Shown here piece after piece: positions 6,509 to 33,513 of a stretch of DNA of 64,000 bases. A program made the translations under genes and the position numbers. Position 1 is the stretch's first letter. Each line of letters begins with the position of its first letter. The notes beneath the pieces were generated by a model. The model was not told the DNA's origin. It was given only the letters and a program-made list of their open reading frames with translations, and searched no databases. This DNA is from a virus. The DNA is taken from positions 62,001 through 126,000 of the IMG/VR virus record IMGVR_UViG_3300043464_001630; one strand, written 5' to 3'.

Positions 6509-7294
6509 TTATTCGTCTATTCTTCCTGTAGATTCGAATACACAGCCAACTTCGAAATTATGGGTAGTTCTAGATGTTCTTCTTTTAATTTTGAAAGTTT
6601 GTCCCTTACTTAACATTGTGAAATATTCTCCATCTATTTTAAGTTCATTCATAAAATTTGTGTAGTTGTATAGATATTCTTGAGTATTTCCATTTGGATG
6701 AGTAACTCTAATGTTTAGTTTGAAATGGCCGAACTCTCTTAATTTTTTTGAAAATTCCTTTTGTTTTTCGCTAGTTCCATTATTTTTATAATATTGTTTT
6801 AATTTTTCTGAATTATCTTTACATTTCTTTAAATGCATTTGTTTGAAATTTTCATCATTTTTGTATTTCTCTTTCATGGTTGCGGATTGTTTGATTCTTC
6901 CCAATAATTGTAATTCTGTGTGTCCTTCTTTGTATCTTTTCTTTTTAGTTGTTGATATTTTTTCAAAAACTTGATTTTTGAAAGATTCATCAAAATAACA
7001 AAGCATATACCCACCAGTTCCTCCAATATGGATATTGTAACAATTTTTTCCATATTTATACTTCAATCTTCTTATTAATTTTTTCTCTAATAAATCTAAT
7101 TTTTCTTTACTGTCTATTTTTAATTTTAACCAACGTCTGGTGAAATTTTCTCTTCCGTACTTTTTAACTGCTTTCAGAAAAATGGTAGTGCCAGAACCAA
7201 TATAATCATCGGTTCTATATCCTATGTGTTGTCCTCCGTAAACTTTTCCATTTATGTTGTTGACTGTTATATATAATAAAAATTCTTTTTGCAT
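6509..7294 (-). CDS. GIY-YIG homing endonuclease
   Basis: 261 residues from ATG 7294, chosen because TAAATA lies 7 nt upstream and the GIY-YIG domain then begins at the natural place. The core reads LLYITVNNINGKVYGGQHIG, then DDYIGSG, then YGRENFTRRWL, the order GIY...YIG...R of this nuclease family. The tail is lysine-rich with helical repeats, as in DNA-binding arms. It lies just downstream of the terminator of the capsid gene, a common insertion neighbourhood for T4-type homing genes. Confidence 0.85.
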   Translation of the reverse strand: MQKEFLLYITVNNINGKVYGGQHIGYRTDDYIGSGTTIFLKAVKKYGRENFTRRWLKLKIDSKEKLDLLEKKLIRRLKYKYGKNCYNIHIGGTGGYMLCYFDESFKNQVFEKISTTKKKRYKEGHTELQLLGRIKQSATMKEKYKNDENFKQMHLKKCKDNSEKLKQYYKNNGTSEKQKEFSKKLREFGHFKLNIRVTHPNGNTQEYLYNYTNFMNELKIDGEYFTMLSKGQTFKIKRRTSRTTHNFEVGCVFESTGRIDE

Positions 7295-7301
7295 ATGAAG
7301 G

Positions 7302-7307
7302 TATTTA
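7302..7307 (-). promoter_or_regulatory. Late promoter element GTAAATA
   Basis: TAAATA, 7 nt, ATG at 7294. Confidence 0.55.
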
Positions 7308-7365
7308 CTATAATGATAACCGGAAATATAGCAATTTGTTAGATAAAAGCATAATGACAAAAAAA

Positions 7366-7394
7366 AAACACCGCAGATTTCTCTGCGGTGTTTT
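7366..7394 (-). terminator. Rho-independent terminator after capsid gene
   Basis: Stem CACCGCAGA / TCTGCGGTG with a 4-nt loop and long flanking A/T runs; on the minus strand it ends in a long T run after the gp23 gene. Confidence 0.9.
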
Positions 7395-7426
7395 GTAAGT
7401 TACTTATTTTTAAGTATTTATGTGAC

Positions 7427-8983
7427 TTAAAAATATATTGAGCTGTTACCGGGCGTAAATGCCTGACCAAGATTCTTGAGAATAATGGTGTGGTAGTATA
7501 AACTAGCTCCGAAGATGTTATCTACCACCCCATATCTCGTCAATAGTCCAACGCGAGGAGCGAAGTCATTCGGTCCGATTGTGCGTTGTACCATTACAGG
7601 AATGTAAGGGCAATAGATGATACCAGAATCATAAAATTCAGTACCTTTGTATCCGAGGAGTGCATACTCGATGCCTTCTGGACCAGTACCAACTCCATAG
7701 CCTACGTCACCATAAACTCCACTGTTCTGTACTTCGGTGCGTGTATCACGATAAACTTGGAAACGACCACCGAGTGAACCAACTTTAGCTACGCCAGTTT
7801 GCTGGGTAGAAACGTTGCCTTGTACAGTTACCCACTGGAATTCGGGGAGCATTTCAAAAATAGCGCACACGCGAGGTGTTGCTACGATGAAGTTTGCTGG
7901 TCCACGACGATTGCGGATAGCGATACGATTTGCTTCAATAATTACTCTCTGGTAGAAGTCACGATTACGTTCAACAAGCCAACGGCCATCGGCAGTAGAT
8001 GGAGACCAGACTGAGAATCCTTTACGGAAACCACCATTTAAGGAGGTTTGGATCATACGGATAATCATTTCACGGTCGATTTCTGCTTGAATCTCATATG
8101 CCATTGCATTAGTGATTTCAGCGTCGATATCAATACCGTTCATGTTACGTAAGTCTTGCTCTAGCTCGACAGACCATTTTGCACCTAACCTACGAGTACC
8201 AGCTTCAACGGCAGTCTTCTCGAAGGATACTTCAACAGTTGGGATGTTTGCGTTGATTTCGAAATTCTTGAGAATTTCAGCAACACCACCATCAGCAGCA
8301 TTAAAGTTCCACGTTACGCCAGATTCGGCATGAGTACCGAGACCTGATAGCGCACCAGCAGAAACGCCAGTGAAACGTGAATCGAGATATTGCCATCCTA
8401 GTTCGTTGTCGCCTTGTGGGGACTTACCACCTGCTCCACCGGGAAGACCACTTCCGAAGTTATCACCAGAAGCTCTGTAATTTACAGTAGTTTGGTTATG
8501 AACTCCGGGGGCTGCATCCCAAGAACCACTCTGAGAGGAGTCTTGATAGTTGCCACCTAGGGTATCCTTGGAGTACTTATAACGTAGAGCGAATGCTAGT
8601 CCAACGGGACCAGACATGGGCTGAACGCCAACGATTTCGTTGGAGATAAGTTCTGGGAAGGTACGACGAATCATCGGAATAAGAATCTTAGGAAGACGAT
8701 TGTCGCCAGAAGCATAGCTATCAGAGCCACCGGGGAATGCTCCACCAGTGCCACCGTTGTTGATAGAACCGAACATAGTTCCTGTTCCACCAGCTACGTT
8801 TGCTTCACGTAAGCAATAAGCTTCTTGGTTTTCAAGTAGCATTGCAGTGTTTAGACGAGTATGATCATCTTCAATTGCGGCTACGCTCTTGCTGGTGTAG
8901 TCGAGCACTGGTGCCCACTTTTCCAAAAGAACCTTAGCGCGATCTTGATCGATGTATGATTGTGCGGGTTTGATTTGTTTCAT
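7427..8983 (-). CDS. 23: Major capsid protein, gp23-like
   Basis: 518 residues, the usual gp23 length. After a helical leader, residues 58-66 read LREANVAGG, matching the place where T4 gp23 is cut by protease gp21 (LNE/A, residue 65), so the mature protein should start at Ala61. The next block contains YASGDNRLPKIL (90-101) and RRTFPELISNEIVGVQPMSG, the HK97-type capsid core of the T4 family (compare IGVQPM in gp23). The C-terminus YGVVDNIFGASLYYHTIILK is also gp23-like. Codon use is richer in G+C at third positions than neighbours, as expected for high expression. It has two upstream late elements, a 40-nt leader, and its own terminator. Confidence 0.95.
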   Translation of the reverse strand: MKQIKPAQSYIDQDRAKVLLEKWAPVLDYTSKSVAAIEDDHTRLNTAMLLENQEAYCLREANVAGGTGTMFGSINNGGTGGAFPGGSDSYASGDNRLPKILIPMIRRTFPELISNEIVGVQPMSGPVGLAFALRYKYSKDTLGGNYQDSSQSGSWDAAPGVHNQTTVNYRASGDNFGSGLPGGAGGKSPQGDNELGWQYLDSRFTGVSAGALSGLGTHAESGVTWNFNAADGGVAEILKNFEINANIPTVEVSFEKTAVEAGTRRLGAKWSVELEQDLRNMNGIDIDAEITNAMAYEIQAEIDREMIIRMIQTSLNGGFRKGFSVWSPSTADGRWLVERNRDFYQRVIIEANRIAIRNRRGPANFIVATPRVCAIFEMLPEFQWVTVQGNVSTQQTGVAKVGSLGGRFQVYRDTRTEVQNSGVYGDVGYGVGTGPEGIEYALLGYKGTEFYDSGIIYCPYIPVMVQRTIGPNDFAPRVGLLTRYGVVDNIFGASLYYHTIILKNLGQAFTPGNSSIYF

Positions 8984-10014: not shown

Positions 10015-10653
10015 TTAAAAATCTTCAGGAATGTTTGGGGGAACGTCTAGATGTTCTTTGGTATCAAACTGCATTTGATCTTCGAACCTTTGTTCGAGTT
10101 TTCCCAATTCTCTATATAACTCTTTGAAATTTTCTTCGTGTTCGATTTCGCCTTGTTGATGAGCAATTTTAATTGCTTTTCCGATTTCAGATTTAAGACC
10201 TCCGATATCTTCGATTCTAATTTTTCCGCTAGAACTTACTCCATACATATGTGAGCGTTGACCACCGTGATAATGTTGTAAATCAAACAAAGCAGAAGCA
10301 GCTCCGCTTCCATCAGAAACATAATCATGAAGATCAATCAAAGATGATTCTGACAAACCTTCTTTAACTAATTTTTTTTTAGATTTTGCTTTAGGAAATT
10401 TTCCCTTACCAAATGCGCTTTTATCTGCGGCGGCTTTTTCACCTTTTTCGTTTCGAGCTTTCTTTTTGAATGGCTTGAAACCTTTCTTTTTATCTTCTTT
10501 GGTCTTTTTAAATGGATTAACTTTTGCTGCTTCTGAGATTGTAATTTTAATTTTTTGATTAATTACATTTTCTAGAAATTTATGAGCAGTACTAAAGTCA
10601 TCAATAATTAAAGAATCGACAAATTTTACAATATTTTGTTCTACGATATTCAT
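10015..10653 (-). CDS. Prohead core protein, gp68-like N-terminus
   Basis: 212 residues between protease and scaffold genes. The N-terminal 45 residues (VDSLIIDDFSTAHKFLENVI, then KIKITISEAAKV) resemble the start of T4 gp68 core proteins (short helix, a K-x-L/I repeat, then a charged tail), and ISE/A fits a gp21 site. A strongly basic stretch follows (PFKKTKEDKKKGFKPFKKKA), then an acidic helical C-terminus. Position and composition support an internal core protein degraded or trimmed on maturation. Its late element sits inside the end of the gp21 gene, 5 nt before the ATG. Confidence 0.6.
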   Translation of the reverse strand: MNIVEQNIVKFVDSLIIDDFSTAHKFLENVINQKIKITISEAAKVNPFKKTKEDKKKGFKPFKKKARNEKGEKAAADKSAFGKGKFPKAKSKKKLVKEGLSESSLIDLHDYVSDGSGAASALFDLQHYHGGQRSHMYGVSSSGKIRIEDIGGLKSEIGKAIKIAHQQGEIEHEENFKELYRELGKLEQRFEDQMQFDTKEHLDVPPNIPEDF

Positions 10654-10658
10654 ATTTT

Positions 10659-10664
10659 TATTTA
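10659..10664 (-). promoter_or_regulatory. Late promoter element CTAAATA
   Basis: TAAATA, 5 nt (aaaat), ATG at 10653; it overlaps the gp21 stop codon region. Confidence 0.7.
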
Positions 10665-11333
10665 GCTTAATTTAATTTTATTTAAAAAATTAATGATGGA
10701 TTCTTTTAAATATTCTTCTACTTTCTTTTTTGGTAGATTAGAAATGCTACGTTCGAAGTCATCATATATTTCTTCAAAAGATCCAGATTCTCCCAGAACC
10801 CATGCTTTGGATTCTAGAATTCCGTTTACGAATGCTTTTGGAAAACTTGGGTCGGCTACACAATCAATAGAAATAAGACGTAGATCTTTTACTACATTTT
10901 TACCACCAGCGGCTTCTTCTAGTTGTCCTAGTGCTCTGGAACTCATGCCCACTCGAACTCCGTCATTTACTAGTGCTCTTACGATATGTCCGCAAGGTGT
11001 AGTTAGTACTTTGCTTTTTCCGTGGAAAATATTACCGTCTTGATAAAGTTCAGTTACGATATGACAAGCTTTGTCGAGACTAACTTCTGCGCTACTTTCG
11101 TGGTTTAAAGTTCCCATCGAACGGTTGGTACGAATCATCTCTTCTTTATAACGATTAACTTCTTTAACCATTTCGTCTAATTTGTACAAACGATTGTTGC
11201 GGTTGTAATTTTCCGCCATCATGTAAGGCCCTTTAATAAACAGGGTAGATGGACTCTTTCTATCTTTTTCCTCAAAGATATACTCAAACTGTTCGTCTGG
11301 TGCAGGTTTTTCTACAATTAATCGTAGTGACAT
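10662..11333 (-). CDS. 21: Prohead maturation protease, gp21-like
   Basis: 223 residues, the usual length of the T4 prohead serine protease (peptidase U9/S77, herpesvirus-assemblin fold). Diagnostic blocks are FIKGPYMMAENYNRNNRLY near residue 32, MGTLNHESSAEVSLDKACHI near 78 (catalytic His), and VNDGVRVGMSSRALGQLEE near 126 (catalytic Ser in GMSSR). It should cut scaffold, capsid and internal proteins at (L/I)-x-E sites. The late element is 5 nt before ATG and the gene is divergent from the internal-protein candidate at 11397. Confidence 0.92.
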   Translation of the reverse strand: MSLRLIVEKPAPDEQFEYIFEEKDRKSPSTLFIKGPYMMAENYNRNNRLYKLDEMVKEVNRYKEEMIRTNRSMGTLNHESSAEVSLDKACHIVTELYQDGNIFHGKSKVLTTPCGHIVRALVNDGVRVGMSSRALGQLEEAAGGKNVVKDLRLISIDCVADPSFPKAFVNGILESKAWVLGESGSFEEIYDDFERSISNLPKKKVEEYLKESIINFLNKIKLS

Positions 11334-11338
11334 AAAAC

Positions 11339-11344
11339 TATTTA
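11339..11344 (-). promoter_or_regulatory. Late promoter element CTAAATA
   Basis: TAAATA, 5 nt (gtttt), ATG at 11333. Confidence 0.75.
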
Positions 11345-11385
11345 GAGTAATTAATTATTTTTTCAGATATATTTAACCAAAAATA

Positions 11386-11391
11386 TAAATA
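11386..11391 (+). promoter_or_regulatory. Late promoter element ATAAATA
   Basis: TAAATA, 5 nt (atcgt), ATG at 11397. Confidence 0.75.
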
Positions 11392-11396
11392 ATCGT

Positions 11397-12422
11397 ATGA
11401 CTACAGATTCAGTAGAAATTTTTGAAAATTATTTAAAATCGTTAAACGAAGCACGAGCACCAAAAGGTACTCCTCGTCCAGATGTTATTGGAAGCAAAAT
11501 GCACATTCAAAAAACTACAATGGCGAGTAATCCAGACGCCGCAGAATCACAAGGAGCTACTATTGGTAGAAATACTGCACTAACTCCAACGCAATCAGAT
11601 AGAATTCGTGATAGAAACTTCGAAGAATATATGATGGATGATATGGAAGAAGGTTTATATCTTCAATTAACTGGAGAAGGATCTAGAGTTCCGAGAAATT
11701 CGCAAAAAAATTTAATGAAATTAATGCGTGAATATTCAAATAACAAATACTTTCAAACCCAAGTAGATGGCGATTTAGTAATTCCTTATTGGATAGTTCC
11801 AGAATGTATTCAATATTTCACAATGAATGCAAAGTCTGAAAAAGATCAGAATATCAAACAAGCATATATAGATGCACTCATATTTATGTACGAAGCCATG
11901 AGTGATAAAAGTACATACGAAGATGTGTATAGAAATTCCAAACCTGTATTAAGAATTAAAACAGAAGGAGGAACAAGAGAAGTATCAGATTTGAAAGATA
12001 CATATGAAGAATTCTCTCCTAAAATAATCGGAAGAATTAAAACATTAAAATCTAACCCAGCTATGGGATTAGCATTAAAGACATTTCTACTTCCAAATCA
12101 AACAAAACCAAGAGAACAAATAAAATTCGGATCTGACATTTATAGAGATGCTCCGTTCGTACACGATCCCGAAACAGGTCGTCATGGTATTCACGGAAAA
12201 GGTGAACACGAACCTAAAAATAAATATGATGCGACAGATCCAACATACGGAGTAAGCAGTGCTGAAAATCTCAGAGATAGTGATTTCGAAAAGATTCGCA
12301 TAAAAAACAAAGAACAAAGAGAAAGTACTCCGACTCCAGCAAGATCATTAGGAGCGCCAAAAGTTAAAAAATCTAGAAAAAAAGTTAACGAATCCTTTTT
12401 TATTAAAGTTATTCCATTCTAA
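11397..12422 (+). CDS. Putative head-packaged protein with capsid-targeting N-terminus
   Basis: 341 residues, no recognised domain. The leader VEIFENYLKSLNEARAPKG is amphipathic and ends in L-N-E/A, closely like the T4 capsid-targeting sequence cut by gp21. The remainder is soluble and mixed alpha/beta with a basic tail (ARSLGAPKVKKSRKK). It is a lone plus-strand gene among minus-strand head genes, placed next to the protease gene and driven by a late element 5 nt before ATG. Packaging in the head is inferred; activity is unknown. Its stop overlaps the convergent gene by 4 nt. Confidence 0.65.
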   Translation: MTTDSVEIFENYLKSLNEARAPKGTPRPDVIGSKMHIQKTTMASNPDAAESQGATIGRNTALTPTQSDRIRDRNFEEYMMDDMEEGLYLQLTGEGSRVPRNSQKNLMKLMREYSNNKYFQTQVDGDLVIPYWIVPECIQYFTMNAKSEKDQNIKQAYIDALIFMYEAMSDKSTYEDVYRNSKPVLRIKTEGGTREVSDLKDTYEEFSPKIIGRIKTLKSNPAMGLALKTFLLPNQTKPREQIKFGSDIYRDAPFVHDPETGRHGIHGKGEHEPKNKYDATDPTYGVSSAENLRDSDFEKIRIKNKEQRESTPTPARSLGAPKVKKSRKKVNESFFIKVIPF

Positions 12423-19632: not shown

Positions 19633-21222
19633 TCACGGTTTGTTATTTTTATTTTTATTTCGAGATTCCGTGAAGAATGTTTTAAAGGATTCTAATTTAG
19701 TTGAGTTTCTCTGTTTAGATTTTTCCATAGCTTCTATGATATCTACATCTGTAAATTTTACAGGATTGTAATTAGAATCGAACATTAGTACTATCTGGGG
19801 TGCTCCTTCTAGTGTAGTTAATTTATTATAACTACAATCAAATGTACCATTTACTTCGTGTGGTGCCCCTTCTAGTGTAGTTAATTTATTATAACTACAA
19901 TCAAATGTACCGCCGACTTTTTTCGGCGAGCCTTCTAATGAAGTTAATCTATTTTTTCTACACAAGAATCCACCATATGTATTCTGAGGTGCTCCTTCTA
20001 ATGAAGTTAATTGATTATCAGAACAATCAAACGAACCATATACAATTTCAGCAGGAGCACCTCGCAAATTAGTTAATTTATTTTTTCTACAATCAAAAGT
20101 TCCGATAACTTTTTTTGGTGCTCCTTCTAATGTGGTTAACAAATTATCTTCACAAGAAAACTTACCAGTACATGTAATATTACTAAAATCTGGTAATTTT
20201 TTAATTAACATATTTGATATATTGATATCAGAATCAATAAATCCGTTTTTTATTTTACTAGCATAATAAGAAAATCTAGCCTCTTGGAAAGGTATTATTT
20301 CGAGTTCATATAATTTTTTAAATTCTTTGGTATCTTCGTGATAAAATTTTCCTTTCCATTCCAACATTCCTATATTTTTACCATCAGATACAACTGTGAA
20401 ATTTTGATCTTCTATAAATTTTCTACAAGCTTTCCTATATCTTTCGCTAACTTCTCGGTTTGCTGGCCCTTTTATTTGAACTATATGAAATTTTTTTTCT
20501 CCATATACTTTGTTTAATTCGAATGTTACTGATGGATGATTGTGTTTTTTGGGATCTCTTAAAGAATATATAAGCAATTCACCTTCTTTATATCTTTTAA
20601 AATAACGACTCTCTCCACCTTCAATCCTAGTTACTTTAGTCTCTCCTGCTGCTTGCCCCACACAGTGCCCCATGTACATACTTTCTTCTCTAAAAGCTTT
20701 ATTTGAAATTAACTTCCAAACTGGATAACCCTCATAAACTCCAACTACTTCGTAATCTACTCCATCTACACTCTCTAGTTTAGCCTTCTCAGCCTTCTCA
20801 GAGGATCGTTCCATTTCTTGATCCCACTTTTGTACTTCCTCAAACATCTGAGGAACAGTTACTTTAAATAAAGATTTTAAATAATTTTCGTCTTTAGTCT
20901 CTAAAAAATCTATTAAGTGCAATAAACGATCTTTGTACTCTGGTGCGAACTGATTGAATTGGTATATACCTTCTTTCTTAGCCCATTCTGGATCGGTATC
21001 TTTAGCTTGATAAGGAGATATGAATCCAATCTTTTGGTTATCATCAGCAGGTGACTGAAACCATTTAATATAGGTTTTTAAAAACCAATCTTTAATCTGT
21101 GAATTCTGTACGTTCTTTTCTTTTAAAATATTTTCTAATTCTAAATGTAAAGGATCTTTGGAAATTAAATTAGCTTCATGTAAGCTAGTGTATTTTTCCC
21201 ATATTAATACGGAATCATTCAT
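19633..21222 (-). CDS. PcfJ-like/repeat protein with capsid-targeting-like N-terminus
   Basis: 529 residues. The leader MNDSVLIWEKYTSLHEANLI carries L-H-E/A, like a gp21-processed targeting peptide. Residues about 160-300 contain YPVWKLISNKAFREESMYMG, then HCVGQAAG, then ELLIYSLRDPKKHNHPSVTF, similar to the PcfJ-type domain (HCVG...SLR...T.E) of plasmid and phage proteins of unknown biochemistry. From about 350 to 480 there are six 21-residue leucine-rich-like repeats (CSYNKLTTLEGAPHEVNGTF). The last two are almost identical in DNA. It resembles the 718-residue protein in layout, and both are late. A packaged, host-directed protein is inferred. Confidence 0.65.
   Translation of the reverse strand: MNDSVLIWEKYTSLHEANLISKDPLHLELENILKEKNVQNSQIKDWFLKTYIKWFQSPADDNQKIGFISPYQAKDTDPEWAKKEGIYQFNQFAPEYKDRLLHLIDFLETKDENYLKSLFKVTVPQMFEEVQKWDQEMERSSEKAEKAKLESVDGVDYEVVGVYEGYPVWKLISNKAFREESMYMGHCVGQAAGETKVTRIEGGESRYFKRYKEGELLIYSLRDPKKHNHPSVTFELNKVYGEKKFHIVQIKGPANREVSERYRKACRKFIEDQNFTVVSDGKNIGMLEWKGKFYHEDTKEFKKLYELEIIPFQEARFSYYASKIKNGFIDSDINISNMLIKKLPDFSNITCTGKFSCEDNLLTTLEGAPKKVIGTFDCRKNKLTNLRGAPAEIVYGSFDCSDNQLTSLEGAPQNTYGGFLCRKNRLTSLEGSPKKVGGTFDCSYNKLTTLEGAPHEVNGTFDCSYNKLTTLEGAPQIVLMFDSNYNPVKFTDVDIIEAMEKSKQRNSTKLESFKTFFTESRNKNKNNKP
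19797..20160 (-). repeat. Tandem 63-bp coding repeats (LRR-like)
   Basis: About six direct repeats of roughly 63 bp encode CxxNxLTxLEGAP units. The two copies starting near 19799 and 19862 are nearly identical over 50 bp (one obvious difference, gct versus gcc), which suggests recent duplication or gene conversion. Confidence 0.75.
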
Positions 21223-25404: not shown

Positions 25405-26244
25405 TTATATTGTTTGTATCAAATAATTTTTGTATTCTGAATTAGGAAGACCGTTTAATAAATTAGAAAATTCAATCTTATTTATAAAATGCTTATTAAA
25501 TGCGATTTCTTCTAAACATGCTATCTTAATTCCTTGACGAGCTTGAATAGTTTCTACATAAGAAGAAGCTTGATGTAGTGTAGAAGGAACGCCAGCATCT
25601 AGCCAAACAAATCCTCTGTCTAATTTACTTACGTATAACCTGTCATTTTCAAGGTATACTTTATTCAAATCAGTAATTTCCAATTCTCCTCTTGGAGATG
25701 GTTTTAAATTTTTTGAGATATCAATTACTTCATTGTCATAAATGTATAGACCGGGAATAGCAAATTTACTTACAAATTCTTTAGGCTTTTCTACCAACAT
25801 TGTTGCCTTTCCGTTCTCGTCAAATTTTACAACTCCGTAATCTTGTGGATTACTAACTTCGTAGGCAAATACTTTTGCTCCAGTGAAGAAAGTGAAATCT
25901 ATGTTTCCGTGAAAAATATTATCACCAAGAATCAACATCACTGAATCATTTCCGATGAAATCTTCGGCAATAATGAAAGATTGAGCAATACCATCAGGCT
26001 TTTCTTGAATTTCATATGTAATATCCAAACCAAGATGTCTGCCGTTCTTTAATAATTTTTTATATGCAGGAACATAATCAGGAGAAGATATAATGCAAAC
26101 TTCCTGAATACCAGCATTCATTAATGTTGCCATTGGATAATAAATCAATGGTACATCATATACCGGCAATAATTGTTTATTGACGGATTGTGTTAATGGA
26201 TAAAGACGAGATCCAGTTCCTCCTGCTAAAATAATTCCTTTCAT
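25405..26244 (-). CDS. rmlA: Glucose-1-phosphate thymidylyltransferase RmlA
   Basis: 279 residues (family about 290). It couples glucose-1-phosphate and dTTP to make dTDP-glucose. Signatures: KGIILAGGTGSRLYPLT at the N-terminus, KQLLPVYDVPLIYYPMATLM, LILGDNIFHG, and DAGVPSTLHQASSYVETIQ. It is the last gene of a 12-gene minus-strand operon and its start overlaps the clamp-loader gene by 4 nt. With rmlB at the other end it supplies dTDP-4-keto-6-deoxyglucose. Confidence 0.93.
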   Translation of the reverse strand: MKGIILAGGTGSRLYPLTQSVNKQLLPVYDVPLIYYPMATLMNAGIQEVCIISSPDYVPAYKKLLKNGRHLGLDITYEIQEKPDGIAQSFIIAEDFIGNDSVMLILGDNIFHGNIDFTFFTGAKVFAYEVSNPQDYGVVKFDENGKATMLVEKPKEFVSKFAIPGLYIYDNEVIDISKNLKPSPRGELEITDLNKVYLENDRLYVSKLDRGFVWLDAGVPSTLHQASSYVETIQARQGIKIACLEEIAFNKHFINKIEFSNLLNGLPNSEYKNYLIQTI

Positions 26245-26615
26245 CCTAGTAATTCTAATAATTTAATATTTTCTTCTAATTCTCTTTTAGACATCTCCAT
26301 AGCTTTTGCAATTAAAGCTAATTCGGTATCTTCTTTTTTAGGTTCTTCTTTGGTTTTCTTAATATAATTAATTCGTTTCTTTTTAACTTTTGGAAACAGG
26401 TTTAGTACAAATTGGTACTGCTCTTCTTTCGTCTGAAATAATTTACCGTATTTGTTCGATGTTTCGTTGATGATGTAAGCAACATCGGAAGAATACATAG
26501 AACCCCAGCGATTAAGCATATACAAATTGAATTGAGTTTCGCCTTCATTGATGGTATTTAGTTTCTTCTTTGTAAAAAGAACAGAATCTATATAATTAAA
26601 AATAGTGTCATCCAT
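26241..26615 (-). CDS. 62: Clamp-loader small subunit, gp62-like
   Basis: 124 residues. Pattern of marine T4-like gp62: short N-terminal helix (FNYIDSVLFTKKKLNTINEG), LYMLNRWGSMYSSDVAYIIN with NET, EEQYQFVLNLFPKVKKKRIN, then a C-terminal helix (DTELALIAKAMEMSKRELEE). gp62 with gp44 loads the gp45 clamp for replication and late transcription. It is far from the other replication genes and embedded in the sugar operon by 4-nt and 1-nt overlaps. Confidence 0.65.
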   Translation of the reverse strand: MDDTIFNYIDSVLFTKKKLNTINEGETQFNLYMLNRWGSMYSSDVAYIINETSNKYGKLFQTKEEQYQFVLNLFPKVKKKRINYIKKTKEEPKKEDTELALIAKAMEMSKRELEENIKLLELLG

Positions 26616-27091
26616 TATCGTTTCAAATTAATATAACAAGCTTCTTTACTATACATGTTTTGTTCGAAAATTTCTTCTAGTTCTTCTTTAGAAGAAGGAT
26701 GAATAGATTTGATATTTTTGAAATTACTCATGATGCTTAAATCATCTTCAGCCCAATGACTGAAACCATCATGTGAGTAATCTTTATCTCTTCCAGATCC
26801 GATAAGCTTTACTGGAATTTTTTCTTCATTCAAGTAATTTCTGATTAATTCAAAAGGTCTGTACAGAAGAAAAGGTGTGATACTATAACACACTGGAATT
26901 TTCCCATCAAGAGCCAAACCAACAGCAGCACCAATCATTAATTGCTCTGCTGCGCCAACATTATAGCAACGATCTGGATATTTTTGTAAAATATTATCAA
27001 AAAACCTAAATCCCAAATCTGCTGTTAAAAAATAAGCATTGGGTTCTTTCTCGATAAAGTTTTCAATTAAATTTGCGAATGTTTTTCTCAT
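26615..27091 (-). CDS. Transketolase C-terminal half (pyrimidine-binding domain)
   Basis: 158 residues. Matches the central transketolase domain: NAYFLTADLGFRFFDNILQK, RCYNVGAAEQLMIGAAVGLA (with the catalytic Glu of GAAEQ), YSHDGFSHWAEDDLSIMSNF. The final transketolase C-terminal domain is absent. It works with the product of the upstream gene as a split thiamine-diphosphate enzyme moving two-carbon units. The ATG overlaps that gene by 4 nt, favouring equal production. Confidence 0.8.
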   Translation of the reverse strand: MRKTFANLIENFIEKEPNAYFLTADLGFRFFDNILQKYPDRCYNVGAAEQLMIGAAVGLALDGKIPVCYSITPFLLYRPFELIRNYLNEEKIPVKLIGSGRDKDYSHDGFSHWAEDDLSIMSNFKNIKSIHPSSKEELEEIFEQNMYSKEACYINLKR

Positions 27092-27726
27092 GAAAATAAT
27101 AGTTGGTTTTTCTCCTCTTCACTTCTCAATACATAGTAGTGAGCTTCCATTTCTTTCTCTTTTAAGAGGGGATATTCATTAAGATTTGTTAGATGAAATT
27201 TAGCATCTGGACAGAATAGTTTAATTTTTTGAATTAGCAAATCAGTATCCACTAAATCATAAGCAGAATATCCATTTGCATTTACATGCAATTCTAAATT
27301 AGAAATTTTCTTATTTCCGATAAAATTTAAACTTTCCCAAATACTTCCTTCGAAGGATTCCCCATCGGAAATAAGGCAATAAGAAGTTTTATCAGGATTA
27401 GCCAAAGCAAATCCAACTGCTATAGGCAGTCCTAACCCAAGGCTTCCGGTAGAACAGTCTAGACGATTCTCTTCATCAAAACAAGGATGAATTCCATGCT
27501 TTTCCAAAAGGTACTCTGCATCTACCTCATAGAAATGCTCCAACACAACATACAAAGCCAACCCTGCATGTCCGTTCGATAAAACAAAACGTTCGTCGTC
27601 TTTCTTTTTGTTGTAGATATCGTATATAATTGGTAGAGAAGTCAAACAACTGCTAATGTGAGATAACTTATGATCATAAGAAATCTGAACAATACGATTT
27701 GAAAGTTTTTTTATAATATCTTCCAT
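27088..27726 (-). CDS. Transketolase N-terminal half (TPP-binding domain)
   Basis: 212 residues. TPP-binding motif SDGESFEGSIWESLNFIGNK (GDGE...N type, here SDGE) preceded by FVLSNGHAGLALYVVLEHFY and LDCSTGSLGLGLPIAVGFAL, all transketolase hallmarks. With the gene at 26615 it forms a split transketolase as seen in some bacteria and in sugar-antibiotic and O-antigen loci. In this operon it probably modifies a nucleotide sugar rather than central metabolism. Confidence 0.8.
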   Translation of the reverse strand: MEDIIKKLSNRIVQISYDHKLSHISSCLTSLPIIYDIYNKKKDDERFVLSNGHAGLALYVVLEHFYEVDAEYLLEKHGIHPCFDEENRLDCSTGSLGLGLPIAVGFALANPDKTSYCLISDGESFEGSIWESLNFIGNKKISNLELHVNANGYSAYDLVDTDLLIQKIKLFCPDAKFHLTNLNEYPLLKEKEMEAHYYVLRSEEEKNQLLFS

Positions 27727-27728
27727 TT

Positions 27729-28439
27729 TTATAAATTTTTAAAAGCAAGCATGTTCAAATTGTTATTCAAAAATTCACTATTCATCATTTTAATCTGATA
27801 TCCCATATTAATGAATTTCTGAGCCAACTGCTCTGGATAAGAAAATGGAGGATGTATTTCGATATAGATATTATTACAAATATCCTTACATTCTTCAAAT
27901 GTCGGATCTTTCAATACAGCAGACACTTCACCGCCTTCAATGTCCAATTTCAATAAGTCAATTACAGGTTCTTTGATTACATTTTTGATAAAATTTAAAA
28001 TAGTAGTGCATCGTACCAATCTACCTGTTTCTGAAATTCGATTCGTCGTAGTATTGCTGTCGTCAATACTAAAACTACAAAATCCATGATAGTCATTAAA
28101 TGCTAAATCGTGTAGTTCGATATTAGTCAAATTGTTACTACGGCATAAGTCTTGTAGTACTTCGATATGCTCGACTGTAGGTTCGATGGCGTAAATCTTT
28201 TTAGAAACTTTATTCAAGTATAGAGAAAATAATCCAATATTTGCTCCCGCATCAATTACTACTGCATCTTTATTTTCGAAGATTTTTAAAAACTGCGGAT
28301 CGTTATAATGACCGTTATTAATTTCTCGCTCAATAATATGCTTTGAGTAAGAATTCTTATTATTATAATAATTTAGAAAAGAATTCGAACCCGACAAATC
28401 AATAGGACTATCTCCCAAAATGTTTAGTAATATACTCAT
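27729..28439 (-). CDS. FkbM-family SAM methyltransferase
   Basis: 236 residues. SAM motif AVVIDAGANIGLFSLYLNKV, then IYAIEPTVEHIEVLQDLCRS, and LLKLDIEGGEVSAVLKDPTF, all typical of FkbM methyltransferases that O-methylate sugars and other small molecules. It likely caps or decorates the sugar made or transferred by neighbouring gene products. Overlaps the upstream epimerase gene by 32 nt. Confidence 0.85.
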   Translation of the reverse strand: MSILLNILGDSPIDLSGSNSFLNYYNNKNSYSKHIIEREINNGHYNDPQFLKIFENKDAVVIDAGANIGLFSLYLNKVSKKIYAIEPTVEHIEVLQDLCRSNNLTNIELHDLAFNDYHGFCSFSIDDSNTTTNRISETGRLVRCTTILNFIKNVIKEPVIDLLKLDIEGGEVSAVLKDPTFEECKDICNNIYIEIHPPFSYPEQLAQKFINMGYQIKMMNSEFLNNNLNMLAFKNL

Positions 28440-29250
28440 TTTGATATATTTTATACGATTCTAAACCTTTTTCAAGTGTAAACTTACTTTTAAAGTTGTA
28501 TTTTGTAGAAATATAATCTGTGTCAGCTTTCCATATCACCGAATCACATTCTTTAAATTTATCAATTAGTATACATTTTAAATCTTTATTCAAAACTTTA
28601 GAAAATATATATGCAATTTCTAAATTAGAATAAGACACTCCAGACCCTGCATTCAAAATATCTGCTTTAGTTAAACTTTTATCAGATTTTAATACCAATT
28701 CAATTAAACTAGTAAAATCTTGGATGTAGAAAAAATCATGATAACCATGTATCAAAGATACTTCTTCTCCGTTTAATATCTTTCTGTATAGCGTAGGAAT
28801 TAAACGATGTTCTGGTTCGAATTCTCCGTATATGCTAAATGGACGAACCACACAAATGTCTTTATCATATGTTCGTGCATATGCCTGTGCTAAAACCGTT
28901 CCGCATGTTTTAGTAGCTGCATATATTGTTTCTGGATTGCACACATCTGTTTCTTTCATATTATTTTGAACTTTTCCGTATTCAGAAGAAGATCCAAAAT
29001 ATATCATTTTATTCACATCATTATCACGAACATAATTAAGAATATCTAATGTCAAAACGACATTACTATCAAACATTAATTCATTTTTGTAAATTTCTCC
29101 AGCACTATGAATAATAATTTCTGGTTTAAACTCTTTTAATTTTTCGGTTACATTATCTCCTCTTTTATAACAAAAATATTCATATTGAGGAAGATAATGC
29201 ATGATAGCTTTTCCTAAAAAGCCAGAAGACCCTGTTAAAAACAATCTCAT
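28408..29250 (-). CDS. NAD-dependent sugar epimerase/dehydratase (extended SDR)
   Basis: 280 residues. Rossmann motif LFLTGSSGFLGKAIM at the N-terminus, IIIHSAG, YFGSSSEYG, and catalytic YAATK. It would epimerise, reduce or dehydrate a nucleotide-sugar; with RmlA and RmlB but no RmlC or RmlD seen nearby, it could act as the 4-keto reductase or an epimerase. Substrate not determinable. Confidence 0.8.
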   Translation of the reverse strand: MRLFLTGSSGFLGKAIMHYLPQYEYFCYKRGDNVTEKLKEFKPEIIIHSAGEIYKNELMFDSNVVLTLDILNYVRDNDVNKMIYFGSSSEYGKVQNNMKETDVCNPETIYAATKTCGTVLAQAYARTYDKDICVVRPFSIYGEFEPEHRLIPTLYRKILNGEEVSLIHGYHDFFYIQDFTSLIELVLKSDKSLTKADILNAGSGVSYSNLEIAYIFSKVLNKDLKCILIDKFKECDSVIWKADTDYISTKYNFKSKFTLEKGLESYKIYQNEYITKHFGR

Positions 29251-30074
29251 AAAGTTTCACAAATTTTAACAAGATTACGAACCGTATCAAGTTGTTTATT
29301 AGAAAATTCTTTAAAATTATCAGAAACTAAATGTAATGTCGATTTGGCATGTTCTATATTATCCATTCCGTATGCTACGCCACATCTTTTGTGAGGAAAT
29401 TTAGAGTACCATTCTTCCGCAGACATCTCTGAATCTGGTATTACAATCGGAATACAACCACACAATGCTGCTATAACCACCCAAAAACAAGCATTGTCGT
29501 AGCAATAAAAATATTCCACTTTTCTCAAAACATCACCCATAACTTTCCAATTATTTTCTAATTTAGATAGGTCAATTGCATCATCTGGATGAATTTTATT
29601 TTTCATACCACCTTTTTTTACAAAAAACGCCGATCCTTTTCTAGGTTCAGAAGATGCAAAAAAATAATCAGTATCAATAAAAGTTGTAGTTAATAATCCT
29701 CTAGACTCTGATTCATTTTTAATATGAAAATATTCGGAATATTTAAATATTAAATCTGTATCTAATTTATTAGAATAAAATCCATTAGCTCCAACTCCAG
29801 CACATTCACCCGGAGTGTTGAGAATCCATCTTACCACATTTTTAGCCTTCATTGGATTTCCTATAGTAATCTCTGGATATATAACTACTACCTCTTCTCT
29901 GGAGAACTTTTTAGCTCCTACAAATGGAGCATTTAAATCTTTATGCGTTATTTTAGAAGTGACGTATGCTTCTTCTCCCAATTCATTTAAATCATGACAC
30001 AATTTATGTAAAGCTACAATTCCTCCCGAATTGTATATAAATGTACAAATATCAATTATATATTTTTTCTTCAT
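29247..30074 (-). CDS. Glycosyltransferase, GT-B type
   Basis: 275 residues. Layout: N-terminal IDICTFIYNSGGIVALHKLC (start of WbbX/GT4-like enzymes), VVVIYPEITIGNPMKAKNVV, RWILNTPGE, and a nucleotide-binding-like C-terminal segment CFWVVIAALCGCIPIVIPDS. Transfers a sugar to an unknown acceptor; 4-nt overlap with the next gene in the operon. Confidence 0.7.
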   Translation of the reverse strand: MKKKYIIDICTFIYNSGGIVALHKLCHDLNELGEEAYVTSKITHKDLNAPFVGAKKFSREEVVVIYPEITIGNPMKAKNVVRWILNTPGECAGVGANGFYSNKLDTDLIFKYSEYFHIKNESESRGLLTTTFIDTDYFFASSEPRKGSAFFVKKGGMKNKIHPDDAIDLSKLENNWKVMGDVLRKVEYFYCYDNACFWVVIAALCGCIPIVIPDSEMSAEEWYSKFPHKRCGVAYGMDNIEHAKSTLHLVSDNFKEFSNKQLDTVRNLVKICETL

Positions 30075-31027
30075 TAGAATTTTTTAATAACAAAATTATT
30101 AGAATCAATCTCTATCTTTGATGGATTGAATTTATCAATCTTATACAAGATCTTTTTTATTAAGTCTTCGGTTAGTGTCATGTTACAATCGAACACATAA
30201 TGACCATAAACTTCTTCATCATTTTTATTGTAAAATTTAACCAAATCATTATCTACTCGAATCTGATCATCTGTCACAACTGCTAATTTTACATACTTCA
30301 AGAATTTCTTGGTGAAAGGCTCGTATCTCCACTTAGAGATGAAAGTATTACCAGATTCTCTTAATTTCTTGTGTGTTTCTTCTGTCGAAACGCCTGTGTC
30401 TGGTTTGTTTTCTCCGTGTACAATATGAGCAGACGTAACCAATGCATGTTTTAGTTTATTAACTTTTAAACAAACTTCGTAATCATTGTCTTGATGATAG
30501 AACCCAAATCTTTCGTCGTACTTTCCAATCACATCATATACCGAACGCCTACAATAAACATTGAAACCTAACAAATATTTCGTGGTTTGATATCCATAAT
30601 AGATATGATCATCTAATGGAAAATTATTGTAAGAGTTTTGATGCCATGTTCGATCTACCGGACTTGCAGACATTAATTCTGGATCTTTCTCGAACTCTTT
30701 TAGAATATTACCGACACAATTTGGTAATACTTTCAAATCACTATTTGAAATACAAATAAATTCAGAATCACAATGTTCTAATGCAATGTTTAAAAATTTG
30801 TTGTAGTTAAAATCAAATTCTGGACAAATTGCTAAAATTTTATCAGAAACCGAAGACCATACAGATAAATCAAAATTTTTATTAGATTCTACCAATACGA
30901 TACGCTTAATGAAGCGATCCCCGTCTTGTAAAGAAGACTCTACACATTTCTTCACCATTTGGAAATGTGCTTCATCTTTAGCTAAAGAAAGTACGATAAT
31001 ATCAAGATTTTCCATAAGATAAAACAA
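30074..31027 (-). CDS. Glycosyltransferase family 2-like
   Basis: 317 residues (or 313 from the second ATG at 31015). IIVLSLAKDEAHFQMVKKCV, then FICISNSDLKVLPN (metal-binding S-x-D type), FGFYHQDNDYEVCLKVNKLK, and VHGENKPDTG fit the GT-A fold. The last ~100 residues (YVKLAVVTDDQIRVDNDLVK) are an added domain. The start overlaps the upstream glycosyltransferase gene by 26 nt. Confidence 0.75.
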   Translation of the reverse strand: MFYLMENLDIIVLSLAKDEAHFQMVKKCVESSLQDGDRFIKRIVLVESNKNFDLSVWSSVSDKILAICPEFDFNYNKFLNIALEHCDSEFICISNSDLKVLPNCVGNILKEFEKDPELMSASPVDRTWHQNSYNNFPLDDHIYYGYQTTKYLLGFNVYCRRSVYDVIGKYDERFGFYHQDNDYEVCLKVNKLKHALVTSAHIVHGENKPDTGVSTEETHKKLRESGNTFISKWRYEPFTKKFLKYVKLAVVTDDQIRVDNDLVKFYNKNDEEVYGHYVFDCNMTLTEDLIKKILYKIDKFNPSKIEIDSNNFVIKKF

Positions 31028-31736
31028 GCGAGTTCAAGCAACTCGTTTCTTTTTTATAATTTTCTAAAACTTGTAATCCATAATTATAGAGAGCTTTGTT
31101 ATTGTGTGTTCCCGAAACATCATTATCAATATCACCATCAGAATCACCGAATCTATTCACTCTCCACGACATTCCTTCATAATGTTTAAAATAGTATGGT
31201 TCTGCTTTAACTTCGCCAATTCTTAATCCAGATTTTTTAATGTCTTCAAAAAAAGAAGATCCAACATCATAACGAATTTCTCCTCGGCTTCTTAAACGTT
31301 CTTCATCATAAAACTTAATACCCTTCGACTTGATGTTCTTAACATTGATGAAACAAAACCAAGGATGCGCTCGTTTATGTAAACGCTTTCCTCCACGATC
31401 ACCTACGATTTCTCCCATTAAACTCAAATCATTATTTTTAAAAGATTCGAATAATTCTGAACAAGATCTGAAGAATACCACATCTGTATCTACTAAAAGT
31501 GCATAATCTGTATCAACTTTTTCTAATAAAAGATCCACAGATGATCCATGCAATCCTCCTGAGTTTAGAAAAAATGGTACATTTCCTTTTTCTAAAATAT
31601 CTTTTGTTTCAGTATTAGTAGAATTTTCAGAAATTAAAATTTTTGTATCAGGATGAATGTTCAAAAATGATTTGAGCATGTTCTCCGTAACTAACGGAGT
31701 ATTATAAGAGCAAGAAATTAAGGTAAGGTTATTCAT
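31002..31736 (-). CDS. Glycosyltransferase, GT-A type
   Basis: 244 residues. LTLISCSYNTPLVTENMLKS at the N-terminus and LLVDTDVVFFRSCSEL with the DxD motif identify a GT-A enzyme. The C-terminal part (YYFKHYEGMSWRVNRF) probably binds the acceptor. Coupled by 4-nt overlap to the gene upstream. Confidence 0.75.
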   Translation of the reverse strand: MNNLTLISCSYNTPLVTENMLKSFLNIHPDTKILISENSTNTETKDILEKGNVPFFLNSGGLHGSSVDLLLEKVDTDYALLVDTDVVFFRSCSELFESFKNNDLSLMGEIVGDRGGKRLHKRAHPWFCFINVKNIKSKGIKFYDEERLRSRGEIRYDVGSSFFEDIKKSGLRIGEVKAEPYYFKHYEGMSWRVNRFGDSDGDIDNDVSGTHNNKALYNYGLQVLENYKKETSCLNSLVLSYGKS

Positions 31737-32518
31737 TTATTTTTGTAAATTTGTTTAAGTGTATTTTGCACCATATCAATGGATACTGAGGGGATTTTCA
31801 ATAATTCTTCTCCGTGTTTTTTATGAAAATAATTAAGTCCCCTTAGTACTGTTTCATTGTGTTTTGGAGAAGACGAAATAGTACTGGTACTCACAGACCA
31901 AGGAATATCAGCCAAATACTTGTTGGAATTTGCTATATCAGCAAACCACCAAAAAGGAGGATGCATATCATTCTTAATAATATTATAGGTATGTTCTAAA
32001 TGCTCCGTCGCATTGAAGAAATTTTCATCCATCAATCCTACTTTATCCAAACACTTCTTTGTGTAAAAGCAAAATGCCCCCACACAATGGGGATAAAGCT
32101 CAACAGAGACATCATTTTTATAATCAATCTTAACTCTCGGATTTGGCGTTTCTGAATTCGGGAATTTATTCATCAATCCATGTTGACTGTAATTGAAATG
32201 CTGAATTCCAGTTTCCTTAGAAGCATTTATATATCTCTCAAATACCGAAGAATCTTTGATAATAATATCATCTTCCATTAAGAAGATATATTCACATCCC
32301 TTTTCTAAAAGATGCTTCATTGCATCGTTTTTACTAACTCCAATTCCTTTATTCGTTTCGTGCTGAATTAAAGTCGCATCAATATCGAAATCATAAGGAG
32401 TTCCGTCATTTACTACCACAAGTTCATGTACTGCTTCTTTAGGAACAGAAGAGAAAATCTTTTTAAAATAATCAGGACGTTTATACGTCATGATTCCTAA
32501 ACCAATTTTATTAGACAT
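31733..32518 (-). CDS. Glycosyltransferase family 2
   Basis: 261 residues. Classic GT2 start GLGIMTYKRPDYFKKIFSSV, LVVVNDGTPYDFD, GIGVSKNDAMKHLLEKG, and FLMEDDIIIKDSSVFERYIN with the EDD metal site. It has a sigma70-like promoter of its own 6 nt before the ATG in addition to read-through from rmlB. Confidence 0.85.
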   Translation of the reverse strand: MSNKIGLGIMTYKRPDYFKKIFSSVPKEAVHELVVVNDGTPYDFDIDATLIQHETNKGIGVSKNDAMKHLLEKGCEYIFLMEDDIIIKDSSVFERYINASKETGIQHFNYSQHGLMNKFPNSETPNPRVKIDYKNDVSVELYPHCVGAFCFYTKKCLDKVGLMDENFFNATEHLEHTYNIIKNDMHPPFWWFADIANSNKYLADIPWSVSTSTISSSPKHNETVLRGLNYFHKKHGEELLKIPSVSIDMVQNTLKQIYKNK

Positions 32519-32524
32519 AATGTA

Positions 32525-32552
32525 ATTATAAACTAAAATGAATAAAATTCAA
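32525..32552 (-). promoter_or_regulatory. Sigma70-like promoter TTGAAT-N16-TATAAT
   Basis: -35 at 32547-32552, perfect -10 at 32525-32530, 6 nt to ATG 32518; the -35 lies in the end of rmlB. Confidence 0.7.
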
Positions 32553-33480
32553 TAGTTTTCATTAATCCGTCAATAAAATTAGTTTTAGGAGTCCAGTTTA
32601 ATTCGTTCTTAATTTTACTGAAATCAATGGCATACCTATAATCATGTCCTTTTCTGTCTTCTACGTATTCAATAACATCGCCTACTTTAACGTCCATCAA
32701 ACAACATACTGTTTGTAAAATCTGTAGGTTATTTCGTTCGCAATCTCCTCCGATGTTATAAGATTCTCCGTCTTTACCATTCTTTAGAATTTCCCAAATT
32801 CCATCACAATGGTCATCTACATACAGCCAATCGCGGATGTTCTGACCGTTTCCATAAATAGGAACTTTCTTTCCTTCGCGGATGTTTTTAATAATTTTGG
32901 GAATTAGCTTTTCCTCGTGTTGACGAGGTCCATAATTGTTCGAACAATTAGACATCGTAACAGGAAGCTTATAAGTATGATGATAACTGTTCACTAAATG
33001 ATCACTAGCTGCTTTTGATGCCGAATATGGCGAGCGTGGACTATATGGCGTGGTTTCGGTAAAATACCCAATATCTGTTAATGAACCGAATACTTCATCA
33101 GTAGAAATGTGGTGAAATCTTTCCAAGTTTCCGTATTTTCTACTAGCTTCTAACAGAGAAAATGTACCATTAATATTTGTTTTGATAAACTTGTCGGGAT
33201 TAGCGATAGAATTATCTACGTGACTCTCTGCTGCGAAATGAACCACGTGTGTAATTTTATTAACATACAACAAACTTTCCATCAAATGAGTATCATTGAT
33301 ATCAGCTTCTACGTTGATTAACTTGTAATTTAAAATATTATCTACATTTAAATTATCTTTATTTCCTGCATAAGTACAAGAATCTACATTAACTACAACG
33401 TTAACTTCCGGAAGATTTATAATCTTATTAATGAAGTTACTTCCGATAAATCCGTATCCTCCAGTTACTAGAATTTTCAT
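32533..33480 (-). CDS. rmlB: dTDP-glucose 4,6-dehydratase RmlB
   Basis: 315 residues from ATG 33480 (preferred to an ATG at 33513 because MKILVTGGYGFIGSNF is the natural start). Motifs: GGYGFIG (NAD), HFAAESHVDNSI, STDEVFGSL, YSASKAASDHLV (YxxxK), NNYGPRQ and GNGQNIRDWLYVDDHC. It makes dTDP-4-keto-6-deoxyglucose from the RmlA product. First gene of the 12-gene operon, driven by a sigma70-like promoter 5 nt upstream. Confidence 0.95.
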   Translation of the reverse strand: MKILVTGGYGFIGSNFINKIINLPEVNVVVNVDSCTYAGNKDNLNVDNILNYKLINVEADINDTHLMESLLYVNKITHVVHFAAESHVDNSIANPDKFIKTNINGTFSLLEASRKYGNLERFHHISTDEVFGSLTDIGYFTETTPYSPRSPYSASKAASDHLVNSYHHTYKLPVTMSNCSNNYGPRQHEEKLIPKIIKNIREGKKVPIYGNGQNIRDWLYVDDHCDGIWEILKNGKDGESYNIGGDCERNNLQILQTVCCLMDVKVGDVIEYVEDRKGHDYRYAIDFSKIKNELNWTPKTNFIDGLMKTIEFYSF

Positions 33481-33485
33481 CCTAA

Positions 33486-33513
33486 AATTTATCAGTTTGT
33501 CTAAATAATTCAA
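33486..33513 (-). promoter_or_regulatory. Sigma70-like promoter TTGAAT-N16-TAAATT of the sugar operon
   Basis: -35 at 33508-33513, -10 at 33486-33491, 5 nt to ATG 33480. The late element of the divergent gene (33502-33507) lies inside its spacer. TAAATT could also be read as a weak late element. Confidence 0.6.
33502..33507 (+). promoter_or_regulatory. Late promoter element CTAAATA
   Basis: TAAATA, 6 nt (attcaa), ATG at 33514; interlocked with the opposite-strand sugar-operon promoter. Confidence 0.7.

Follow-up and report, generated by a model that had tools for sequence, protein, structure and literature searches.

Among known sugar-branching enzymes, YerE, ErwE, and JanthE are lyases dependent on thiamine diphosphate (ThDP) that add branches of two or more carbons to 4-keto-3,6-dideoxy sugars (PMC12247030). 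Branching of keto sugars was shown for ErwE and YerE-like enzymes and proposed for AviB-like ones (PMC12247030; PMC4753412). The latter, AviB1/AviB2 and Pau11/Pau12, are split, E1 alpha/beta-like, and thought to add acetyl branches to 4-keto antibiotic sugars (PMC4753412). For miharamycin and amipurimycin synthesis in Streptomyces, sugar branching by split transketolases has been proposed, not proven (PMC12247030). This report deals with a compact two-subunit transketolase, TkN and TkC, encoded in a deoxysugar cluster of the viral record IMGVR_UViG_3300043464_001630 (236,391 bases). "The window" is the whole stretch analysed, 64,000 bases long (bases 62001-126000 of the record). The cluster probably makes and uses an unusual dTDP-sugar, with the transketolase branching the 4-keto sugar.

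Partial transketolases are known from other settings. In SAR11 Fonsibacter, four of them lie in a hypervariable surface region, and the authors consider their function uncertain (PMC6811365). The Micromonas virus MpV-SP1 carries two transketolase genes (N-terminal and B subunit), which were read as Calvin-cycle or pentose-phosphate genes, and genes for dTDP-glucose 4,6-dehydratase and acetolactate synthase occur in viruses related to it (PMC5454428). An ocean catalogue of viral metabolic genes left out contigs that bear genes of lipopolysaccharide islands (PMC11360552); clusters of the present kind would thereby go unseen. No paper on phage branched-chain sugars was found in the open-access library searched.

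The deoxysugar operon and its compact transketolase

The source is a tailed phage, as its genes for a portal, a major head protein, a UvsX-like protein, and a polymerase indicate. The cluster occupies the minus strand from 25405 to 33513 and reads, in transcription order, RmlB, three glycosyltransferases, gene A, a short-chain dehydrogenase/reductase (SDR), an FkbM methyltransferase, TkN, TkC, a 124-aa gene, and RmlA. The genes are co-directional, and since most neighbours in the cluster either touch or share a few bases (4 bp between TkN and TkC), it reads as one operon. It combines a nucleoside diphosphate-sugar 4,6-dehydratase (RmlB), a ThDP ligase (TkN/TkC), and a reductase (SDR), as a branched-chain deoxysugar cluster does.

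RmlB (32533..33513, minus strand) and RmlA (25405..26244, minus strand), a dTDP-glucose 4,6-dehydratase and a glucose-1-phosphate thymidylyltransferase, both exceed the curated equivalog cut-offs (TIGR01181, 427.7 bits; TIGR01207, 363.6 bits). RmlB carries the motifs STDEVFG and YSASK; its start is likely near 33480, because the profile match begins near residue 13. An earlier note on this DNA, made by eye from the sequence, had assigned both genes to an operon at 26615-33480; both are present, but RmlA lies outside that span, behind the 124-aa gene. The SDR (28408..29250, minus strand; PF01370, 116.9 bits) has SSSEYG in place of the TDE dehydratase motif and is a candidate for reducing the branch ketone or C4. 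Homologues 58% and 60% identical to it adjoin the compact transketolase in two other phage loci, L018 and L070.

The same note had described two transketolase halves, and profile searches bear this out, although both are smaller than usual. TkN (27088..27726, minus strand; 212 aa), the ThDP/PP-domain subunit, matches PF00456 (Transketolase_N), and TkC (26615..27091, minus strand; 158 aa), the Pyr-domain subunit, matches PF02779 (Transket_pyr) only. The usual split transketolase consists of two chains of about 300 aa. The TkC chain stops where the usual C-terminal domain would start, and Transketolase_C is missing from it. In all phage loci, the Pyr chain measures about 147-185 aa. AlphaFold models built from alignments of relatives reached a pLDDT of 94.3 (TkN) and 94.5 (TkC). 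Their best fold matches both belong to the Carboxydothermus split transketolase (6yak for TkN, 6yaj for TkC), which is also the best sequence match of TkC. An alpha2beta2 assembly is likely, but the Carboxydothermus enzyme differs in its chains of about 300 aa and its C-terminal domain.

The active-site residues were compared with those of yeast transketolase (GDG..N motif, Glu418, and His30/69/103/263/481). Across 45-46 sequences, no change is seen in the catalytic Glu, in the Asp and Asn that bind the metal, or in five His; GDG reads SDG. In TkN, H23, H53, H80, D121, N151, and H196 are invariant in 46 sequences; in TkC, E49, D25, and H112 are invariant in 45. An Arg, R101, is special to the compact family. 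The positions of the yeast phosphate ligands Ser386 and His469 are altered, the latter to G.

The following route is proposed. RmlA and RmlB would supply dTDP-4-keto-6-deoxy-D-glucose, as follows from their strong family membership, and a distant RmlC may first epimerise this 4-keto intermediate. TkN and TkC, as a minimal two-subunit transketolase, would move a two-carbon hydroxyacetyl unit onto the C4 keto group, the donor being probably a ketose phosphate or hydroxypyruvate. The SDR would then reduce the branch ketone, FkbM may O-methylate the sugar, and the glycosyltransferases would transfer it to a glycan of the surface or of the virion. DNA was judged an unlikely target, given that no thymidylate-synthase/hydroxymethylase family gene was found in the record.

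ThDP enzymes beside the phage dehydratase

The strongest indication of the role of the transketolase comes from the enzymes that replace it. Viral loci were fetched via the phage 4,6-dehydratase instead of the transketolase (n=80); the dehydratase query was built from transketolase loci, so that any bias would be toward transketolase. A ThDP enzyme lies at most four genes from the dehydratase in 67 of the 80 loci and at most two genes away in 59, compared with a mean of 13.7 and a maximum of 28 for random genes (2000 random gene draws from the same loci). The slot is occupied by compact transketolase in 22 loci, by AHAS-type enzymes (YerE/JanthE-like) in 36, and by compact E1 alpha/beta pairs (AviB-like) in nine. 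Two ThDP classes occur together in only two loci (L294 and L290), counted over the whole fetched stretches. RmlC fills the slot in L284.

The best match of the AHAS-type proteins tested was PDB 8rph, with true acetolactate synthases ranking behind it. Ten of them carry an NCDG motif, as does 8rph, which we infer to be JanthE; CDG replacing GDG is the mark of this YerE-like, ketone-accepting enzyme (PMC12247030). In the loci of these ten proteins (L300 10001-15318; L301, L302, L303, L305, L324, L327, L335, L351, and L352), the genes for dehydratase, ThDP lyase, acetylating acetaldehyde dehydrogenase, and 4-hydroxy-2-oxovalerate aldolase stand side by side, followed by an SDR in most of those inspected. 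MhpE and MhpF, called over curated cut-offs in the NCDG loci tested, accompany 10/10 NCDG enzymes vs 0/30 in other AHAS-type loci, and RfbH is found in 4/10. The product of MhpE is 4-hydroxy-2-oxopentanoate. This compound is named as a donor for ErwE in erwiniose synthesis, with CDP-4-keto-3,6-dideoxyglucose as acceptor (PMC12247030). The NCDG loci likely encode an erwiniose-like long-branch sugar route; judged by gene content, dehydratase, 3-dehydrase, JanthE-like ligase, and donor synthesis together come close to the full one.

Other genes were noticed beside AHAS-type enzymes. A homologue of PanB (ketopantoate hydroxymethyltransferase) follows the AHAS-type enzyme in L282 (10942-13684; over the PanB cut-off), L290, L297, L316, L331, L334, and L357, and it might supply the ligase with a 4-hydroxy-2-oxo acid as donor. 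A NeuB/PseI-like synthase is paired with the AHAS-type ThDP enzyme beside the dehydratase in L312 (10942-13745), L281 (9468-10964), and nine other loci.

The compact E1 alpha/beta-like pairs (about 209 + 178 aa) are found in L285 (10939-12108), L283, L294, L315, L345-L347, L353, and L355. Like AviB1/AviB2 and Pau11/Pau12, the window enzyme has two subunits and stands in a deoxysugar cluster, and the E1 pair of L285 sits in the same phage slot. The PP subunit of the window, however, matches Transketolase_N (PF00456) and not E1_dh, so an AviB-type identity, for which the earlier note had proposed to check the halves, is not borne out. Its broader idea, a two-carbon branch put on a 4-keto sugar, fares better, because other phages have YerE/JanthE-like and AviB-like enzymes in this slot next to the 4,6-dehydratase. 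As the compact transketolase replaces these beside the same dehydratase, it likely branches too, with a hydroxyacetyl unit.

The window cluster can also be set against yersiniose/erwiniose-type pathways. Common to both are a ThDP ligase that forms carbon-carbon bonds, a 4,6-dehydratase next to it, and an SDR reductase, with RfbH often present in such pathways, and other phages with related clusters carry JanthE-like CDG-motif enzymes. In contrast, the window enzyme consists of two small chains of the transketolase family and is not a single-chain ThDP flavoprotein of AHAS type, its sugars are dTDP- and not CDP-linked, and RfbH is absent from the window. By description, the split transketolases of miharamycin and amipurimycin synthesis are similar in that a hydroxyacetyl unit is thought to be moved to a keto sugar; the phage form differs as a minimal variant without the C-terminal domain. 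Taken over all loci, there is a slightly better than even chance that phages hold a general, swappable sugar-branching module for glycan diversity (4,6-dehydratase, often a 3-dehydrase, one of three ThDP ligases, matching donor genes, and a reductase) in which the compact transketolase is a new, ketone-accepting transferase of hydroxyacetyl to nucleotide sugars.

Distribution and kinship of the compact transketolase

A single-sequence TkN scan of viral contigs gave no match, and an alignment query was used instead. With it, TkN relatives were found in at least 290 viral contigs of IMG/VR. TkN and TkC are adjacent and compact in 97/97 loci examined, so the split pair is not due to chance. After removal of near-identical copies, 68 dereplicated loci remained. 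An SDR-family protein was present from six genes before to seven after TkN in 66/68 of these, and an FkbM protein in 33/68. A TDE-motif 4,6-dehydratase (motifs STDEVYG and YxxxK) was present in 43/65 dereplicated loci. Two gene orders recur, namely glycosyltransferase-SDR-FkbM-TkN-TkC-dehydratase and RfbH-dehydratase-TkN-TkC-SDR. The RfbH 3-dehydrase beside the transketolase in L001 and L041 exceeds its curated cut-off. In a control based on GT17, the dehydratase was present in 34/34 transketolase loci vs 23/46 without transketolase (Fisher p 1.3e-7), which gives weak support only, since the control's query came from transketolase loci.

A T4-type major head protein (Gp23) in 12/20 large contigs marks these as phages rather than bacterial contamination. 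A search for the capsid of nucleocytoplasmic large DNA viruses was uninformative, with no match even in the controls. In L007, L014, L017, and L097, genes for an HldE-like cytidylyltransferase, a PfkB kinase, a small HAD protein, and a cupin adjoin TkN-TkC-SDR, possibly for another end product.

Trees built from the PP and Pyr domains unite the 67 compact sequences in a single clade (support 0.996) that excludes Salmonella TktA, catabolic split transketolases, and DXS. The reference set of these trees was small and left out further bacterial compact forms from whole-genome profile searches. Grouping of the pair with central-metabolism enzymes, which the earlier note had named as the result that would speak against its idea, was not seen: the pair falls in a separate clade, and its surroundings in bacteria are loci for glycans. 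Sister to the phage proteins is a sequence of Omnitrophica that comes from a polysaccharide locus. In that locus (L016 463-10477), an acetolactate-synthase-like ThDP enzyme and the compact transketolase lie about 7-9 kb apart.

The bacterial kin were found by whole-genome profile searches. When GTDB contigs were scanned using the Pyr alignment, only seven loci emerged, mostly on short marine contigs of metagenome-assembled genomes that may be viral. The 98 proteins flanking the best-scoring bacterial kin (13 loci) are rich in GT2 glycosyltransferases, sugar epimerases, DegT aminotransferases, methyltransferases, Wzy, and sugar transferases. The place of these kin in polysaccharide loci indicates that the compact transketolase belongs to glycan making. 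Very probably, the window cluster as a whole serves glycan synthesis.

Alternative readings

Several points weigh against a branching role. The RmlB of the window is of the canonical type and shares only about 35% identity with the transketolase-linked phage dehydratase. The closest relatives of the window transketolase (L018, L019, L020, L022, L024, L026, L043, L054, and L070) come without a strong RmlB, in mostly fragmentary contigs. The HldE-like and PfkB genes of some loci hint at other sugars, and an RmlC elsewhere in the record also fits a plain rhamnose-type sugar. For these reasons, addition of a hydroxyacetyl branch to a 4-keto-6-deoxy sugar by the window enzyme is regarded as reasonably probable and no firmer. 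Moreover, the Streptomyces split transketolases that serve as precedent are themselves unproven (PMC12247030). The loss of Ser386 and His469 does not discriminate, because it is common to catabolic split transketolases; its use as a disproof of a pentose-phosphate role was dropped on the same ground.

The most serious alternative, though an unlikely one, is an ordinary dTDP-6-deoxyhexose of the L-rhamnose or 6-deoxy-talose type, made via RmlA, RmlB, and the distant RmlC together with either the SDR or an RmlD of the host, while the transketolase serves a free or phosphorylated sugar of another glycan. The earlier note had seen neither rmlC nor rmlD. This holds for rmlC in the window, but the gene is present elsewhere in the record (G000:C1:9183-9683; L101 9171-9695; TIGR01221, 234.6 bits), about 80 kb from the cluster. 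A profile search of the record found no RmlD over cut-off apart from RmlB itself, and the record is possibly incomplete. The SDR is the sole reductase candidate, which would suit a rhamnose-type route, but it scores only 20 bits against the RmlD profile, below cut-off. A cluster glycosyltransferase weakly resembles rhamnosyltransferases (TIGR01556, 29 bits), and the RmlC in the dehydratase slot of L284 fits as well. Nevertheless, rmlC occurs in only 4/20 transketolase-bearing contigs, and TkN and TkC lie within the same tight operon and are conserved together with the SDR across distant phages.

It is very improbable that the transketolase makes a heptulose or another ketose that becomes its own nucleotide sugar by a heptose-like route, without branching. 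The HldE-like cytidylyltransferase and PfkB-like kinase beside TkN-TkC-SDR in the four loci named above would fit such a route, but these genes are absent from the window cluster, and most transketolase loci have a 4,6-dehydratase. Very improbable, too, is a pentose-phosphate role, in which the transketolase would be an auxiliary metabolic gene that raises nucleotide supply in infection and stands in a sugar cluster incidentally: viral transketolases have been so interpreted (PMC4053976) and all catalytic residues are retained, but the clade is separate from TktA and the catabolic split enzymes, the neighbours are SDR, FkbM, RmlB, RfbH, and glycosyltransferases and not other genes of that pathway, the bacterial kin lie in polysaccharide loci, and the enzyme swaps places with YerE-like and AviB-like ones.

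Significance

If sugar branching holds, phages make some of the rarest known sugars with carbon-carbon bond-forming enzymes of their own. Viral genes called "transketolase" or "acetolactate synthase" and assigned to central metabolism may partly belong to sugar branching, and those filed under carbon or amino-acid metabolism would gain a testable function. They would also provide many natural ThDP enzymes that accept ketones, of use for tertiary alcohol synthesis, including a minimal transketolase without the C-terminal domain. By description, the SAR11 Fonsibacter region is similar, in that partial transketolases, with one or two of the three domains, stand among genes for glycosyltransferases, methyltransferases, and epimerases, but it is a bacterial surface island (PMC6811365). 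The presence of partial transketolases there would then suggest a contest of phage and host over surface glycans by the same chemistry.

Other genes of the cluster and the record

The remaining cluster genes are all on the minus strand. The FkbM-family methyltransferase (27729..28439; TIGR01444, 69.7 bits, over cut-off) is a candidate for O-methylation; it and the epimerase-type SDR agree with what the earlier note had reported. Three of the four glycosyltransferases listed there are supported: glycosyltransferase D (31733..32518) by a PHROG profile (85.6 bits; GT2 22.3 bits, just below cut-off), and C (31002..31736) and B (30074..31027) as GT2 by PF00535 (26 and 24.1 bits, cut-off 23.3). For the fourth, gene A (29247..30074), Pfam, PHROG, and TIGR profile searches gave no match; its operon position makes it a possible, unconfirmed GT-B glycosyltransferase. 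The 124-aa gene between TkC and RmlA (26241..26615) likewise had no family match in Pfam or PHROG searches. Its homologues lie downstream of TkC in L018 and L082, and it is probably a phage replication gene, gp62-like by eye, outside the pathway.

Elsewhere in the window, 19633-21222 encodes a 529-aa phage protein with a Leu-rich repeat-like tail made of repeats of LTSLEGAPxxVxGTFDCSxNKLT. In L101, a DUF1501-like Tat-signal protein was recognised by eye (7100-8395) as a possible hint to the host; such proteins are typical of Planctomycetes and relatives. The same locus carries, again by eye, an IS607-type pair of a serine recombinase and a TnpB-like protein (10174-12355).

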